A DNA stretch of 64,000 nucleotides, taken from positions 248,001 to 312,000 of the forward strand of contig NZ_QKOB01000002.1 of the NCBI RefSeq assembly GCF_003226535.1. The letters run 5' to 3'. Below are positions 43,034 through 49,201 of this stretch, piece after piece. The stretch comes from Meiothermus sp. Pnk-1 (GTDB lineage: Bacteria > Deinococcota > Deinococci > Deinococcales > Thermaceae). The first letter of the stretch is position 1. Each line of letters opens with the position of its first letter. A model generated the notes under the pieces. It saw only the letters and a list, made by a program, of their open reading frames with translations, searched no databases and was not told where the DNA came from. A program made the position numbers and the translations under genes.

Positions 43034-45535
43034 ATGAATCCGCCCGACCCCGGCTCGGAGAAGCCCCCTTCCTTTCCCAGAGGTCAGAGGGAGGAAGTGG
43101 CGCTGCTGCTGGAGTTGAGCCGGATCTTGGCGGTCCAGCTGGAGCTACCCCAGATCTACCGCCAAGCCGTGGAGGCTGTGGCGCGCACCTTCGGCTACGC
43201 CTTGGTTTCGCTGTACACGGTGGAGGGGGCGGAGCTGGTGCTGCAGCACCAGGTGGGGTACAGCCGGTTCATCGAGCGTATCGCCCTGGGGGAAGGAACC
43301 ATGTCCCGTGCGGTGAGCAGTGGCCAGACCGTGTTTATCCCCGAGGCTGCGCGCGAGCCGGATTTCCTCTACGCCCTCCCGGGAATTACCTCAATGGTGG
43401 CGGTGCCGATCTATGCCCGAGGCCAGGTGCGCGCGGTGCTATGTGTGGAGAGCATAGGTTTCTCGCTCTGCGAAGGGGATTGCCGCCTGCTCGAGGGGGT
43501 GGCCTTGCAGGTGGGTGGGGCGGTGGAGCGGGGGTTGCTGGCTGCTGCGCTGCTGGAAGGGGAGCGGCTGTACCGTGCCCTGGTAGAGACCATGCCCGCG
43601 GCGCTGGTGCTGTTCGACGAGAAGCGCTTCGTCTACGCCAACCCCCGGGCGTTAGAACTCCTCGGGGTATGTTCTTTGGAAGGGTTGCAGCAGCGGAGCC
43701 TGGCCGACTTTAGCCACCCGGAGGCCCCCTTGAGCCTCGAGCGCTACCTCCGGGTGCTGCAAGGAGAAGCCATAGAACGCGCCGAGGACCGGCTAAACAA
43801 CCTGCGGGGGGAGGTGATTGACTTCGAGGTGAGCGCGTACCCCGTAGAGCTAGATGGGAGGGTTCTGGGGCTGGCCATGGGGCAGGACATCACCCAGCGC
43901 AAGCGGGCCGAGGCCGCCCTCAGGCGCAGCGAGAACCTGCTGCGTACCCTGATGCAGCATAGCCGTGAGGTGGTGCAGATCCTTGACCCCCAGGGAAACT
44001 TGCTCTACACCTCGACAAACGCCGCGGTGCTGGGGTTTGGCACTTCGCAAAGCCTCCTCAGCTGGGTGGTTCCCGAGCATCGGGACAAGGCCGGCCACCT
44101 GTTCGCGGAGGCCTTGGGCCGTACTGAAGGGGTGGGACCGGCGATCTTGCCCCTGCAAAACCCCTCTTCCCCGGAGGAATGGGCGTGGTTCGAGGTCTCC
44201 TGGGAGAACCGGTTGGCCGATCCCGACATCGGAGGGATCGTGCTGCGGGCGCGGGATGTTAGCGAGCAAAGGGCTTACCAGGCCACCATTCAACATCTGG
44301 CTTACCACGACGAACTCACCGGTCTGCCCAACCGCCGCAGCTTCCACGAGCAGGCCGCGGCAATACTGCGTCGCGCGGCATCGGAGGGGAGTGGGTGTGC
44401 GCTACTTTACCTGGACTTAGACCAATTCAAGGGCATCAACGATTCATTGGGGCACGCCGCGGGGGATAAGCTCTTGTTGCAGGTGGCTCGTCGGCTGGAG
44501 CGGTGCGTACGGGAGGGGGATCTGCTGGCTCGGCTGGGTGGCGATGAGATGGCCATTATGGCAAAAGGAGTTGGCGAGGCCGGTGCTCAAGCCCTGGCTG
44601 GGCGGGTGCGCAGCGCCTTCGCCGAGCCCTTTTCGCTGAGCGGGTTGCAGGTGGTGGTGACCGTCAGTATCGGCATAGCCCTGTTTCCTCAGCATGGGGC
44701 GGACCTGGACGGGCTGATGCGGGCGGCCGATCTCGCCATGTACGCCTCCAAGGAGGGGCGGGACCGGTGGACGGTGTATCAGCCGCGCTTCTATCGCGCA
44801 TCGCGGCGTCAGCTCGAGCTGCTGCAAGACCTGCGCAAAGCCTTGCGGGAGGACGCCCTCAAGCTGGTGTATCAGCCAATCCTGCCCCTGCGACAGGAGC
44901 TGGCGCCAAAGGCCGAGGCGTTGTTGCGCTGGGTTCACCCTGCGCGCGGTCTTATCCCTCCGACGGAGTTTATCCCTCTGGCCGAGGTCCACGGTCTGGC
45001 CTCGGCCCTGGACACGTGGGTGCTCAGGCAGGCGCTACGGGAGGGGCCCTCGAAATCGTTTCAGATAGGCGTCAACCTTTCGGCCATAACCCTGCTAAAC
45101 CCCCGCCTGGTCCGGTGGCTGAACCGCGCGCTGCGTTCGGCCAAGCTAGATCCCAGCAGCTTGTACCTCGAGGTGACCGAGACCAGCTTGCTGCGCGACT
45201 TTGCCTCCGCCCGGGCCAACCTCGAGGCGGTGCGCCAGCTAGAGGTACAGGTGGCCTTGGACGACTTTGGCGTAGGGCACACCACCCTGGCTTACCTTAG
45301 CCGCCTGCCGGTGGATCTGGTCAAGGTGGACCGCAGCTTTACCGCAGGCATCGGTAACCCTTCGGGAGAGGCGCTCTTGGCGGGCATTCTATCCCTGGCA
45401 AAGGGGCTGGGGATGTCTACGGTGGTCGAGGGGGTGGAGACCCCCCCTCAGCTCGACTGGCTGCGGGCTAACGGTTGCGACTACGTGCAGGGCTACTTTA
45501 TAGCCAAGCCCGGCGGGCGGGAGGAGTTAGCCTGA
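43034..45535 (+). CDS. GAF-PAS-PAS-GGDEF-EAL c-di-GMP protein
   Basis: This 833-residue soluble protein starts at ATG 43034. Domains are GAF (20-170), PAS (180-290), PAS (295-420), GGDEF (420-580) and EAL (590-830). The cyclase signature reads RLGGDEMAIM, with Met replacing the final Phe, and REGD five residues before gives an RxxD site. The EAL half keeps AEALLRW, NLSAITL, VTETS, LDDFGVGHTTL, VKVDRSF and VEGVE, so it should be active. The protein may be bifunctional or act mainly as a phosphodiesterase. Its stop overlaps the convergent mgtE stop by nine bases. Confidence 0.9.
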   Translation: MNPPDPGSEKPPSFPRGQREEVALLLELSRILAVQLELPQIYRQAVEAVARTFGYALVSLYTVEGAELVLQHQVGYSRFIERIALGEGTMSRAVSSGQTVFIPEAAREPDFLYALPGITSMVAVPIYARGQVRAVLCVESIGFSLCEGDCRLLEGVALQVGGAVERGLLAAALLEGERLYRALVETMPAALVLFDEKRFVYANPRALELLGVCSLEGLQQRSLADFSHPEAPLSLERYLRVLQGEAIERAEDRLNNLRGEVIDFEVSAYPVELDGRVLGLAMGQDITQRKRAEAALRRSENLLRTLMQHSREVVQILDPQGNLLYTSTNAAVLGFGTSQSLLSWVVPEHRDKAGHLFAEALGRTEGVGPAILPLQNPSSPEEWAWFEVSWENRLADPDIGGIVLRARDVSEQRAYQATIQHLAYHDELTGLPNRRSFHEQAAAILRRAASEGSGCALLYLDLDQFKGINDSLGHAAGDKLLLQVARRLERCVREGDLLARLGGDEMAIMAKGVGEAGAQALAGRVRSAFAEPFSLSGLQVVVTVSIGIALFPQHGADLDGLMRAADLAMYASKEGRDRWTVYQPRFYRASRRQLELLQDLRKALREDALKLVYQPILPLRQELAPKAEALLRWVHPARGLIPPTEFIPLAEVHGLASALDTWVLRQALREGPSKSFQIGVNLSAITLLNPRLVRWLNRALRSAKLDPSSLYLEVTETSLLRDFASARANLEAVRQLEVQVALDDFGVGHTTLAYLSRLPVDLVKVDRSFTAGIGNPSGEALLAGILSLAKGLGMSTVVEGVETPPQLDWLRANGCDYVQGYFIAKPGGREELA

Positions 45536-46894
45536 GAGGTGGAGCAGCCAGCGCGCCATGCTCAAATAGATCACTAGCCCGGTGATGTCGCTTAGGGTAG
45601 CGATGAGCGGGTTGGAGATGAGGGCGGGGTCGAGGCCGACTTTTTTGATCCCGATGGGCAGCAGCGCGCCAAGGATGTTGGTCGCGGTCATCAGCACCGC
45701 CAGCGAGGCCGCCACCACCAACAAGATTTCCCCGTGGCCGTCTATCCATACCTTGATGGAAAGCAAAGCCGCCAGGGTGATGCCCAGCAGGGCTCCTACC
45801 GAGAATTCCTTGAGCAGAATCCGCCACCAATCCCGGCCCCGGATGTCTCCGGTGGCGAGCGCTCGTACGATGAGTGTGCTGGATTGGTTGCCGGTGTTGC
45901 CACCAGCGCCGAGCAGGATAGTGATGTAAAAGGTCAGGGCGGTCACCGCCTGGAGAGTTTTTTGAAAACCTTCCAATATGCTGCTGGAGAACATCGCCCC
46001 CACGATCAGGATCACCAGCCAGCGCACCCTAGCGCTCCACAAGTCCCATACGCTGCTGCGGCTGTACACCAGCTCGGGCGACTCCACCGCCCCCAGGCGG
46101 TATATGTCCTCCGTGGCTTCCTCTTGGATCACGTCCACCACGTCGTCAATGGTGATGATCCCGGAGAGTACTCCTTCCTCGTCCACCACCGGCAGCACCG
46201 TGAAGTTGTAGTCGGCCATGAGCCGGGCTACTTCCTCTTGGTCGGTATCGGTGCGCACCCGTACCACGTCGGGGTTCATGATCTCGCGGACTTTGGTCTT
46301 GGGATCGGCTACGATCAGATCGCGCAAGGAGAGCACCCCCTCGAGCCGATTCGCCGCGTCTACCACGTAGAGGTAGTAGACCTGTTCGGCGTCGGGGGCC
46401 GCCCGGCGCAGGAAGCGAAAAACCTCGTCCACCGTCATCGAATCGCGCAGGGCGATGTACTCCGGGGTCATCAGCCCCCCGGCTTCGTCCTCTTCGTACT
46501 CGGAGAGCTCCTCCACCTCGGCCCGCGTCTCGGGGTCCAGCTGCTCGAGCAGGGCCTCGGCCTGCTGGGGGTTCTCCTCCTCAACAGCTTGAAGGGCATC
46601 GGTCAGGTCATCGAGAGAGAGCTCGCCCAGCAGCTCTTTGACCCGCCAAGGCGGTAAGGCCTCCAACAACTCGGTCTGCTCGCCTTCCTCGAGGTGGCTG
46701 AAAACCTCGGCGGCCTCCTCAGGGGGCAGCAGGGTCAGCACGGTAAAGCGCTGCTCTCGGGAGAGCTCGTCCCAGTGCTCCAGGAGCTCCTGCGGGTAGA
46801 GCTCGCCTAGGGCTTGCTGCACCTGTTGCGCATCGCCCCCGGCCAAAGCTTGCCGCAAAGCCTGCCATCCGGCCTGTACATCCATCTCCGGCAT
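45527..46894 (-). CDS. mgtE: Mg2+ transporter MgtE
   Basis: This 455-residue protein matches the well-studied Thermus MgtE in length and layout. It has an acidic N-domain of helical repeats (LGELYPQELLEHWDELSREQRF, LPPEEAAEVFSHLEEGEQ). A CBS pair follows (MTPEYIALRDSMTVDEVF; IMNPDVVRVRTDTDQEEVARLMADYNFTVLPVVD given in part). A long plug helix and five membrane helices complete it. The pore selectivity Asp lies in SNPLIATLSDITGLV. Mg2+ bound to the acidic N-domain and CBS pair closes the channel. A structured leader lies upstream (46920-47100). Start ATG has GGGGGAAAC before it. Confidence 0.95.
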   Translation of the reverse strand: MPEMDVQAGWQALRQALAGGDAQQVQQALGELYPQELLEHWDELSREQRFTVLTLLPPEEAAEVFSHLEEGEQTELLEALPPWRVKELLGELSLDDLTDALQAVEEENPQQAEALLEQLDPETRAEVEELSEYEEDEAGGLMTPEYIALRDSMTVDEVFRFLRRAAPDAEQVYYLYVVDAANRLEGVLSLRDLIVADPKTKVREIMNPDVVRVRTDTDQEEVARLMADYNFTVLPVVDEEGVLSGIITIDDVVDVIQEEATEDIYRLGAVESPELVYSRSSVWDLWSARVRWLVILIVGAMFSSSILEGFQKTLQAVTALTFYITILLGAGGNTGNQSSTLIVRALATGDIRGRDWWRILLKEFSVGALLGITLAALLSIKVWIDGHGEILLVVAASLAVLMTATNILGALLPIGIKKVGLDPALISNPLIATLSDITGLVIYLSMARWLLHLSG

Positions 46895-46944
46895 GTTTCC
46901 CCCTTTCCGCGTAAGACAGCGTGGTTCGCTGCGGGAGAAAGCAT

Positions 46945-47081
46945 CCGTGGCCTTCTGCGAATTGTCAGAGGGGAGCTATTCGGTGCCTGAGTGAGGCACC
47001 GTCTCACTCTGACGACTCGAACTGGAATCTTCCACGGTACCTCCTCGGCAAAGACAACCCGGCTAGACCTGTTCTAGCGGG
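46945..47081 (-). ncRNA. Structured 5' leader of mgtE, candidate riboswitch
   Basis: Within the 240-base leader several helices fold in nested order. GTCAGAG (46964-46970) pairs with CTCTGAC (47007-47013). Inside this, CGGTGCCT pairs with AGGCACCG (46981-47001). CCGTGG (46945-46950) can pair with CCACGG (47032-47037) to close the whole structure, but those bases also form a TGGAA/TTCCA hairpin (47023-47034), giving two exclusive folds. A further hairpin lies at 47058-47081. I do not recognise the M-box or another known class. Regulation is inferred from structure and position. Confidence 0.5.
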
Positions 47082-47100
47082 TGGCAAAAAAGCCTCTGTT

Positions 47101-47130
47101 AGATTAGCACCGGGGAGTTTTCCTAAGCAA
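47101..47130 (-). promoter_or_regulatory. Candidate promoter of mgtE leader
   Basis: On the minus strand TTGCTT (47125-47130) and TAATCT (47101-47106) are 18 bases apart, giving a leader of roughly 200 bases before mgtE. Confidence 0.45.
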
Positions 47131-47135
47131 GCTTT

Positions 47136-47678
47136 TTATTGGCTGCGGATCAGCAGCGCTTGGAGCTTCTCGAGATGGGCGGTTTCGTCTGCGATTAGGG
47201 ACTGGGCCAGCGCCGCAATCTTTGGGTTTCGGGAACGGGCCTCCACCATCTTGGCCATATTGACGGTGGAAAAATGGTTGGTGAGCATCAGGTTGGCGAA
47301 CACCGAATGGACGTTTTCGCTCTTTTGGCTTTCCCGAAGGTTTACCCAGTCTTTATACATCTCGCGCTTCATCGTGGCCTCGGCGCTGGGCTCGAGGCCC
47401 CCTAGCTGCTGGAGGAGGGCTTTCCATTCGTTGATGCGCTCTTTTCGCTCCTTGATGAGGGCCTGCACCCAGCTTCGCATCTGGGGGTCTTGCGCTTGGG
47501 GCAGGTAAGCTTCGGCCATGTCTAGCATTCCCTGGTAGTGGGGAATCAGCATGGAGACCAGCACCCGGTCAAAGTTGCGGCTGGGGGATCTGTTCAGCAC
47601 CTCCCAGATGTCAGAGCCACTGAAGCCGCACCCCAAGGCCGATCCAATGAGAACCACCAACCCCGCCAGCTTGCGCAT
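47136..47678 (-). CDS. DUF305 lipoprotein
   Basis: This 180-residue protein starts at ATG 47678 (MRKLAGLVVLIGSALGC) with GGAGG upstream. The N-terminus is a lipoprotein signal with Cys after GSAL, so it should be anchored at the membrane surface. The DUF305 domain, a ferritin-like four-helix fold, is shown by NFDRVLVSMLIPHYQGMLDMAEAYL, with MLTNHFSTVNMAKMVEA and ADETAHLEKLQALL. Its Met/His-rich helices often bind copper or silver. No metal gene is adjacent; the function is inferred from the family. Confidence 0.85.
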   Translation of the reverse strand: MRKLAGLVVLIGSALGCGFSGSDIWEVLNRSPSRNFDRVLVSMLIPHYQGMLDMAEAYLPQAQDPQMRSWVQALIKERKERINEWKALLQQLGGLEPSAEATMKREMYKDWVNLRESQKSENVHSVFANLMLTNHFSTVNMAKMVEARSRNPKIAALAQSLIADETAHLEKLQALLIRSQ

Positions 47679-47896
47679 CGCTCCAACCTCCGGGGGCCAC
47701 CCCGAGCCCATTGTGGTCCTCGAGGGTCGGTTATAGCAAGCCATGCCGACCCAAGTTGATATTGACACGCTCAAGGTCTTGCTGCTACCCTGGCGGTCGG
47801 CCTTGAAGAAGTGGGCCGGAAATCACACAAAAAGCTTGAGTGATTTCTTGAGGCCACGCAGGCGGGTCCGGGCTTTTGAAGTAGGGTGAGTTACGC

Positions 47897-49201
47897 ATGT
47901 TCGAGACGCTAAGCCAACGCATCCGCGCAGCGGTAGACAAGCTGCGCGGGCGGGGTCGGATCAGCGAGGCCGACCTCAAGACCACCCTGCGCGAGATCCG
48001 CATGAGCTTGCTCGAGGCCGATGTGAACTTCGAAGTGGCGAAGGCTTTTGTCGGCGCCGTGCAGGAGAAGGCCTTGGGGGCTCGGGTGCTGGAGAGCCTC
48101 ACGCCCGCCGAGCAGATCTTGACCATCGTCTACAACGAACTGGTCCAGACCCTGGGTGGCGAGGCCAGGCAGCCCACCTTGAAAAGCGAGGGCAACCTGT
48201 GGTTCATGGTGGGTTTGCAGGGTTCGGGCAAGACTACCACCAGCGGCAAGCTGGCGGCTTTCTATAAGTCCAAAGGCCGCCGCCCCCTGCTGGTAGCCGC
48301 CGATACCCAGCGCCCCGCGGCCCGCGAGCAGCTTAGGATCTTGGGGGAGAAGGTGGGGGTGCCGGTGCTCGAAGTGGCCGACGGGGAGCGCCCCGAGGTC
48401 ACTGCCCGCCGCCTCCGGGAACACCTTACCTTCGACTACCGCGACCTGGTAATCGTGGACACCGCCGGGCGCTTGCAGATTGACGAGGCCCTGATGGGCG
48501 AACTCGCCAGGCTCAAAGAGGTGCTGCGCCCTACCGAGACTTTCTTGGTAATAGATGCCATGACCGGCCAGGAGGCGCTCAACGTCTCCAAAGCCTTCGA
48601 CGAGCGCATCGGGGTCAGCGGGCTGATCCTCACCAAGCTCGACGGCGACGCCCGGGGTGGGGCGGCGCTCTCGGCGCGGCACGTCACGCAAAAGCCCATC
48701 GTCTTCGCCGGGGTCTCGGAGAAGATCGAGGGCCTCGAGCCCTTCTACCCCGACCGTCTGGCCCAGCGCATCCTGGGCATGGGCGACCTCCAGACCCTTC
48801 TGGAGAGGGCCAAGGCTGCCGAGCTCGAGGCCCCCCCCAAGGCTCCCGGGGAGATCACGCTCGAGGACCTGATTGCCCAGATGCGCCAGATGCGCAAGAT
48901 GGGCTCTTTTGCCGACATCCTCAAGATGATCCCGGGGGTTTCCCGGGCGTTGCCGCCCGGGTTCACGGTGGACGAAAAGGCCGTCAACCGGCTCGAGGCC
49001 ATCGTGCTCTCGATGACCCCAGCGGAGCGCCGCGACCCCCGGATCCTCAACGCCTCGCGCCGCAAGCGCATCGCGGCGGGTTCCGGCACCAGCGTGCAGG
49101 AGGTCAACCGGCTCATCAAAACCTTCGAGGAGACCAAGAGCCTGATGAAATCTTTGGCCAAGCAAAGGGGGCGGGGCTTCCGCAACCCGTTTGGAAGATA
49201 G
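47897..49201 (+). CDS. ffh: Signal recognition particle GTPase Ffh
   Basis: This 434-residue SRP54 homologue has an N domain, a G domain with [15 protein letters not shown] (P-loop), [18 protein letters not shown] and [10 protein letters not shown], and a Met-rich M domain ([23 protein letters not shown]) ending in [11 protein letters not shown]. It binds signal sequences and 4.5S RNA and targets ribosomes to FtsY at the membrane. GGTGAG precedes the start. rpsP follows 17 bases downstream, as in many bacteria. Confidence 0.97.

Follow-up and report, generated by a model that had tools for sequence, protein, structure and literature searches.

The mgtE gene of Meiothermus sp. Pnk-1 is preceded by a leader that is real, conserved and undescribed in the sources that we searched. 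It probably acts as a translational attenuator under the control of an upstream ORF (uORF), with Mg2+ as the most likely signal, and it is best read as a further form of the uORF-controlled Mg2+ transporter leaders, a kind already known. The gene lies within a stretch of 64,000 nucleotides (the window, whose coordinates are used throughout).

The mgtE locus and its leader

The mgtE gene (45527–46894, minus strand) encodes a 455-amino acid Mg2+ transporter with the Pfam domains MgtE_N, CBS and MgtE, for which a structure search returned 2yvx (MgtE) as the closest solved chain (E = 2.9e-180). As a bacterial Mg2+ transporter, MgtE has been studied in depth, and the window's genome contains a single site matching the family. 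The region upstream of the gene, which is present in a single copy in the genome, measures 241 bases and reaches back to the end (at 47136) of a DUF305 gene (Pfam) on the same strand. An earlier note on this DNA had read the leader on the plus strand; since mgtE is on the minus strand, the RNA is the reverse complement, and the leader runs from 47094 to 46895. The helix arms are palindromic, which made the helices visible on the plus strand as well. Moreover, the leader folds below dinucleotide shuffles on either strand (z of –3.3 for plus and –2.6 for minus, with 1/200 shuffles equally good for each), so that the choice of strand rests on gene position and conservation and not on folding energy.

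A candidate promoter was identified by eye at 47101–47130 (minus strand), consisting of a –35 box TTGCTT (47130–47125), an 18-nt spacer and a –10 box TAATCT (47106–47101), and would place the transcription start at approximately 47095. A comparable arrangement (TTGCTTG..TGCTANNCT) precedes the leaders of most relatives; a sigma-70 consensus scan of 46700–47900 reported no promoter.

All features described below lie on the minus strand. The uORF (46976–47035; VEDSSSSRQSETVPHSGTE) has a GTG start and 19 codons followed by TAG, and is preceded by its own SD, AGGAGG (47040–47045). Three nested helices described in the earlier note (CCGTGG/CCACGG, GTCAGAG/CTCTGAC and a third pair) are indeed present. 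In the first of these, P1a, the 5′ arm CCGUGG (47032–47037), which includes the uORF start codon, pairs with CCACGG (46945–46950), and P1a continues outward into P1b, where GAGGAGGUA (47038–47046) pairs with 46943–46935. Because the uORF SD is part of this P1b arm, it also acts as an anti-anti-SD. Nested inside P1 are P2, formed by GUCAGAG (47007–47013) and CUCUGAC (46964–46970), and the P3 hairpin (CGGUGCCU...AGGCACCG, 46981–47001), which ends two bases 5′ of the uORF stop codon. A proposed lengthening of P2 outward, into the region of the uORF stop, was poorly conserved and was dropped. The anti-SD (UGCUUUCUCCC, 46933–46943) pairs either through 46943–46935 with the uORF SD (P1b) or through 46940–46933 with the mgtE SD region (GGGGGAAA, 46896–46903), the latter being the 3′ arm of P4. 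Sharing the anti-SD makes P1b and P4 mutually exclusive.

A conserved pair of exclusive structures, P1 versus P4, thus bears out the proposal that the leader has two alternative folds, but the second fold originally named, TGGAA/TTCCA (UGGAAGAUUCCA, 47034–47023), was found only in the two genomes of the window's own genus. In the other 20 leaders, this site reads UGGAAGAYCACA, UGGAAGAUUACA or otherwise, and it is therefore not a conserved alternative fold.

Distribution of the leader

DNA 5′ of mgtE was taken from relatives, among them those in three Meiothermus-type genera, i.e., g1 (the window's own), g2 and g4, the last of which includes Meiothermus rufus, hypogaeus, luteus and taiwanensis. 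Of the 22 genomes in these genera, 21 had a related leader 5′ of mgtE; M. granaticius (G015; L004 / L093) has no leader before mgtE, although its genome groups with Meiothermus. A genome from a different family (G039) carries a diverged leader, which was assigned by position and by eye and was missed by a covariance model. This model, trained on ten g4 (Meiothermus) leaders only, recovered out of sample both the window leader (32.8 bits, E = 2e-5 per genome) and the g2 leaders (approximately 70 bits). Across the 111 genomes of the class, it matched in 21, once in each and every time before mgtE, the sole additional match being the opposite strand of the leader site in G019; none of the Thermus genomes among the 111 was matched. 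A 14-base uORF start motif occurred in the same 21 genomes, in one copy each at mgtE, next to eight further scattered, background-like matches elsewhere.

The absence of an M-box consensus from the leader, as remarked on in the earlier note, was confirmed: none of 4227 Rfam families, M-box (RF00380) included, reached its gathering score in the window or at any of eight related loci, and the 351-base leader region returned no match up to E = 10. A search for a known class, which had been named as a way to disprove novelty, thus yielded none in Rfam. Likewise, a literature search that had most subscription journals outside its scope returned no description of mgtE leaders in Thermus or Meiothermus, nor of the regulation of mgtE in these bacteria. 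Of the suggested new RNA class in Thermaceae, what is borne out is a structured leader conserved beyond one species; it does not extend to all Thermaceae, as the Thermus leader differs.

Support for the pairings

Since the MAFFT alignment (A1) puts P2 and P1a out of register in g1 and G039, pair counts were redone on 22 leaders (including G039) with registers set by hand, which biases these counts towards pairing. With these registers, pairing was found in 131/132 cells of P1a, 110/110 of P1b, 105/105 of P2, 109/110 of P3 and 175/175 of P4. Two-sided changes between lineages occurred in two of the five compared pairs of P2 and in four pairs of P4, and one pair of P3 also changed on both sides, all of these resting on few lineages. 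P1 varied on its 3′ side only, as expected from a 5′ side that consists of an SD and a start codon, and all changes were compatible except one (in G007). Since any anti-SD complements any SD, P1b is not independent evidence, and it is the contiguous P1a that provides specific evidence for P1.

In A1 itself, pairing reached 87.9%, vs. 33–50% for slid partners, and neither the paired-cell percentage nor the covariation score was reached by any shuffle. In the covariation analysis called for in the earlier note, compensatory changes between lineages occurred in P4 under the hand-set registers, but the A1 count of pairs with two-sided change (4) was not above the shuffles. Covariation was weak in Meiothermus alone. 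RNAalifold, run unsupervised on the MAFFT alignment, chose the pairing of uORF SD and anti-SD unaided. When the uORF SD and start codon were compared against a shuffled downstream region, a partner was found with P-values of 0.004–0.019 in 8/9 leaders (0.12 in G007), and the mgtE SD had a partner with P-values of 0.002–0.04 in 7/9 leaders, the test being not significant in the two g1 genomes with the segments as cut. Sequence comparison shows a conserved uORF together with P1, P2, P3 and P4, of which P1 and P4 overlap in the anti-SD.

The upstream ORF

Start, stop and frame of the uORF are intact in 21/22 leaders. Its length amounts to 17, 18, 19, 21 or 23 codons, the differences being multiples of three, and its stop lies 3′ of P3. 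Over the first ten codons, pN/pS was 0.36 in frame vs. 0.72 and 1.07 in the other frames; over the full uORF, it was 0.65 in frame vs. 0.63 in one control frame, so that the frames were not separable. As with mgtL, corL and mgtQ, the leader of this Mg2+ transporter gene thus has a uORF with its own SD that is conserved in frame, with a modest coding signature. The N-terminal pattern V-E-D-x-S-(S/D)-S-R is present in g1, g2 and all g4 leaders but two, and most Meiothermus-type peptides have an acidic start (M-E-D; i.e., VED with V read as fMet), which is suggestive of ribosome destabilisation at low Mg2+, with no strong EPDP-like run in the peptide of the window. Many bases of the Meiothermus leaders are invariant outside the helices and at wobble positions, beyond what the uORF needs. 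In G007, the RNA structure is kept and the uORF frame is lost. This leader (L021, 2998–2866, minus strand) has an ATG-TGA start-stop pair right after the SD, and its GTG frame overruns the mgtE start.

Predicted folding and proposed mechanism

In transcripts ending 5′ of the mgtE SD, the uORF SD and the anti-SD were predicted to be paired with a probability of 1.00 at 37 °C in 22/22 leaders. In full-length folds, the P1 and P4 states were within approximately 5 kcal/mol of each other in 21/22 leaders, and, at equilibrium and with no ribosome, P4 was preferred in most Meiothermus leaders, so that the on state depends on co-transcriptional folding. Blocking the uORF start to mimic a bound ribosome made the mgtE SD approximately 100% paired in all ten leaders folded, and a further blocked-start run agreed in every lineage except G007. 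Exclusive structures that tie occupancy of the uORF to the signals of the transporter gene, as in mgtL, corL and mgtQ, are thus found in the P1/P4 choice of the anti-SD and in the blocked folds.

From these data we infer that the uORF is translated, that its translation sets mgtE on or off in the direction outlined here, and that Mg2+ is the signal. The anti-SD would have two possible partners, i.e., the uORF SD with its start codon (P1) or the mgtE SD (P4). A ribosome on the uORF start would block P1 and leave the anti-SD to take the mgtE SD, switching mgtE off. If the uORF were not initiated, or lost its ribosomes early, P1 would form before the mgtE SD is transcribed, and mgtE would be on. 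Low Mg2+ would then most likely act by impairing translation of the uORF, the product of which has an acidic start, as has been proposed for mgtL and mgtQ.

Alternative explanations

The uORF SD and start codon form one arm of the switch, which favours control by uORF translation over a ligand-binding aptamer. A true riboswitch, in which P1–P2–P3 and the conserved bases would bind Mg2+ or another ligand, P1/P4 would be the expression platform and the uORF would be incidental, is in our view rather unlikely. It would fit the very high nucleotide conservation in Meiothermus, which extends to unpaired segments like AAACCGUGUACC and to third positions of uORF codons, as well as the retention of the structure in G007 without the uORF frame. 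It also has a precedent in the pe20 M-box of M. tuberculosis, which is translational and has the same SD1/anti-SD/SD2 platform, with the uORF SD as anti-anti-SD (PMC12810186). Nevertheless, no Rfam family matched, and the uORF retains its SD, start, frame and stop in lineages that differ in stem lengths and loops. Moreover, Mg2+ generally stabilises long helices, which should favour P1 as the longer helix and turn mgtE on at high Mg2+, i.e., in the wrong direction. Direct binding of Mg2+ by the leader RNA would still be compatible with the sequence.

The Ser- and Arg-rich peptide (VEDHSSSRR), and the many leader peptides that sense amino acids or drugs, could instead point to a uORF attenuator responding to a cue other than Mg2+, such as a lack of charged tRNA for Ser or Arg, or a drug that targets the ribosome. 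However, a Mg2+ transporter is encoded downstream in every case and the uORFs of Thermus and f5 are of other composition, and we regard such a cue as unlikely. The position of the mgtE SD inside a stable hairpin in thermophilic hosts would also suit a constitutive or thermosensing RBS mask with a short ORF that merely sets basal expression. This is very unlikely, given that every lineage retains two exclusive anti-SD partners, a feature superfluous for a simple RBS hairpin, and that the folding model still shows strong masking at 60 °C. Finally, the region could be the end (terminator) of the DUF305 gene that lies upstream on the same strand, accompanied by chance hairpins. A terminator scan of 46700–47900 found no such site, however, and the element precedes mgtE even in relatives whose sequence differs further upstream; its conservation with mgtE contradicts this explanation, which we deem scarcely credible.

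Relation to known Mg2+ transporter leaders

By analogy, the uORF-run attenuator of the window would work most like corL and mgtL, and like mgtQ in its RBS masking. In corL and mgtL, expression of the transporter runs counter to translation of the uORF, which acidic or proline codons render sensitive to Mg2+; both act via Rho-dependent transcription termination (PMC11552253). The leaders of corA (corL) and mgtA (mgtL) share with that of the window a short ORF before a Mg2+ transporter gene, two exclusive structures and an inverse uORF effect (predicted for the window), whereas the visible output in the window is masking of the mgtE SD instead of Rho termination. The mgtQ leader of Salmonella, whose uORF has acidic codons and in which the mgtB RBS is masked (PMC8092293), resembles it in the AGGAGG SD, the short ORF, the acidic second residue, the stem-masked transporter RBS and the two exclusive foldings, but belongs to another phylum, with another transporter type and another sequence. 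In addition, abolishing uORF initiation lowers mgtB expression (PMC8092293), whereas it is predicted to raise that of mgtE, and in mgtQ the uORF's own SD has not been reported as the freeing partner, the role proposed for it in the window leader.

The M-box (ykoK, RF00380) likewise occurs in the leader of an MgtE-type transporter gene (ykoK), and its pe20 member shares the SD/anti-SD/SD layout; the window leader differs in lacking the M-box aptamer, as judged by Rfam. The Thioalkalivibrio mgtE motif SRC-65-1, a strong riboswitch candidate reported only from Thioalkalivibrio (PMC11109978), is also a structured mgtE leader that includes the mgtE SD and start codon, but no uORF is mentioned in the part of its description available to us, and the comparison with the window leader is by description only. 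Competition of a uORF SD and a transporter SD for one anti-SD makes for a compact design. Should the leader prove responsive to Mg2+, sensing of Mg2+ by the ribosome would be a recurrent solution and not an enterobacterial peculiarity.

Leaders of Thermus and family f5

The Meiothermus-type element is absent from Thermus mgtE leaders, 25/26 of which have an ATG-started uORF of 11–13 codons, typically encoding M-x-(E/G)-A-L-P-S-S-P-R-P or a near variant. The stop codon of this uORF touches the first of the three segments of a putative switch, GAAGGCCGCC / GGCGGCCUUC / GGAGGCCGCC, the last of which includes the mgtE SD. In the folds, a ribosome placed at the stop of the uORF hid the mgtE SD in all folded leaders, and one at codon 6 left it free (0.52–0.96) in all but two (G026 and G030). 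In this folding model, completion of the uORF would therefore switch mgtE off and early ribosome loss would switch it on, i.e., the same logic with a different structure. The coding test did not separate the frames of the Thermus uORF (0.66 vs. 1.28 and 0.49). A –10-like TAGGCT lies approximately 10 bases 5′ of the uORF ATG in Thermus leaders such as L023, L024, L026 and L056, and because of this spacing the Thermus uORF may be nearly leaderless.

Four genomes of family f5 have other uORFs before mgtE, containing ADPEP (L044 and L046) or MEPIPSSG (L045 and L047), and these peptides resemble acidic/proline sequences said to destabilise ribosomes; the folds of the f5 leaders were uninformative. 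Tentatively, leader-peptide Mg2+ sensing before mgtE might have arisen in Deinococcota independently of the enterobacterial mgtL, corL and mgtQ, in at least two architectures (those of the Meiothermus-type and Thermus leaders), with f5 as a possible third. Most uORF peptides of the Meiothermus-type, Thermus and f5 leaders contain Ser-Ser (Ser-x-Ser in g2), in many cases with Arg or Pro-Arg after it, which may reflect either chance or a common origin.
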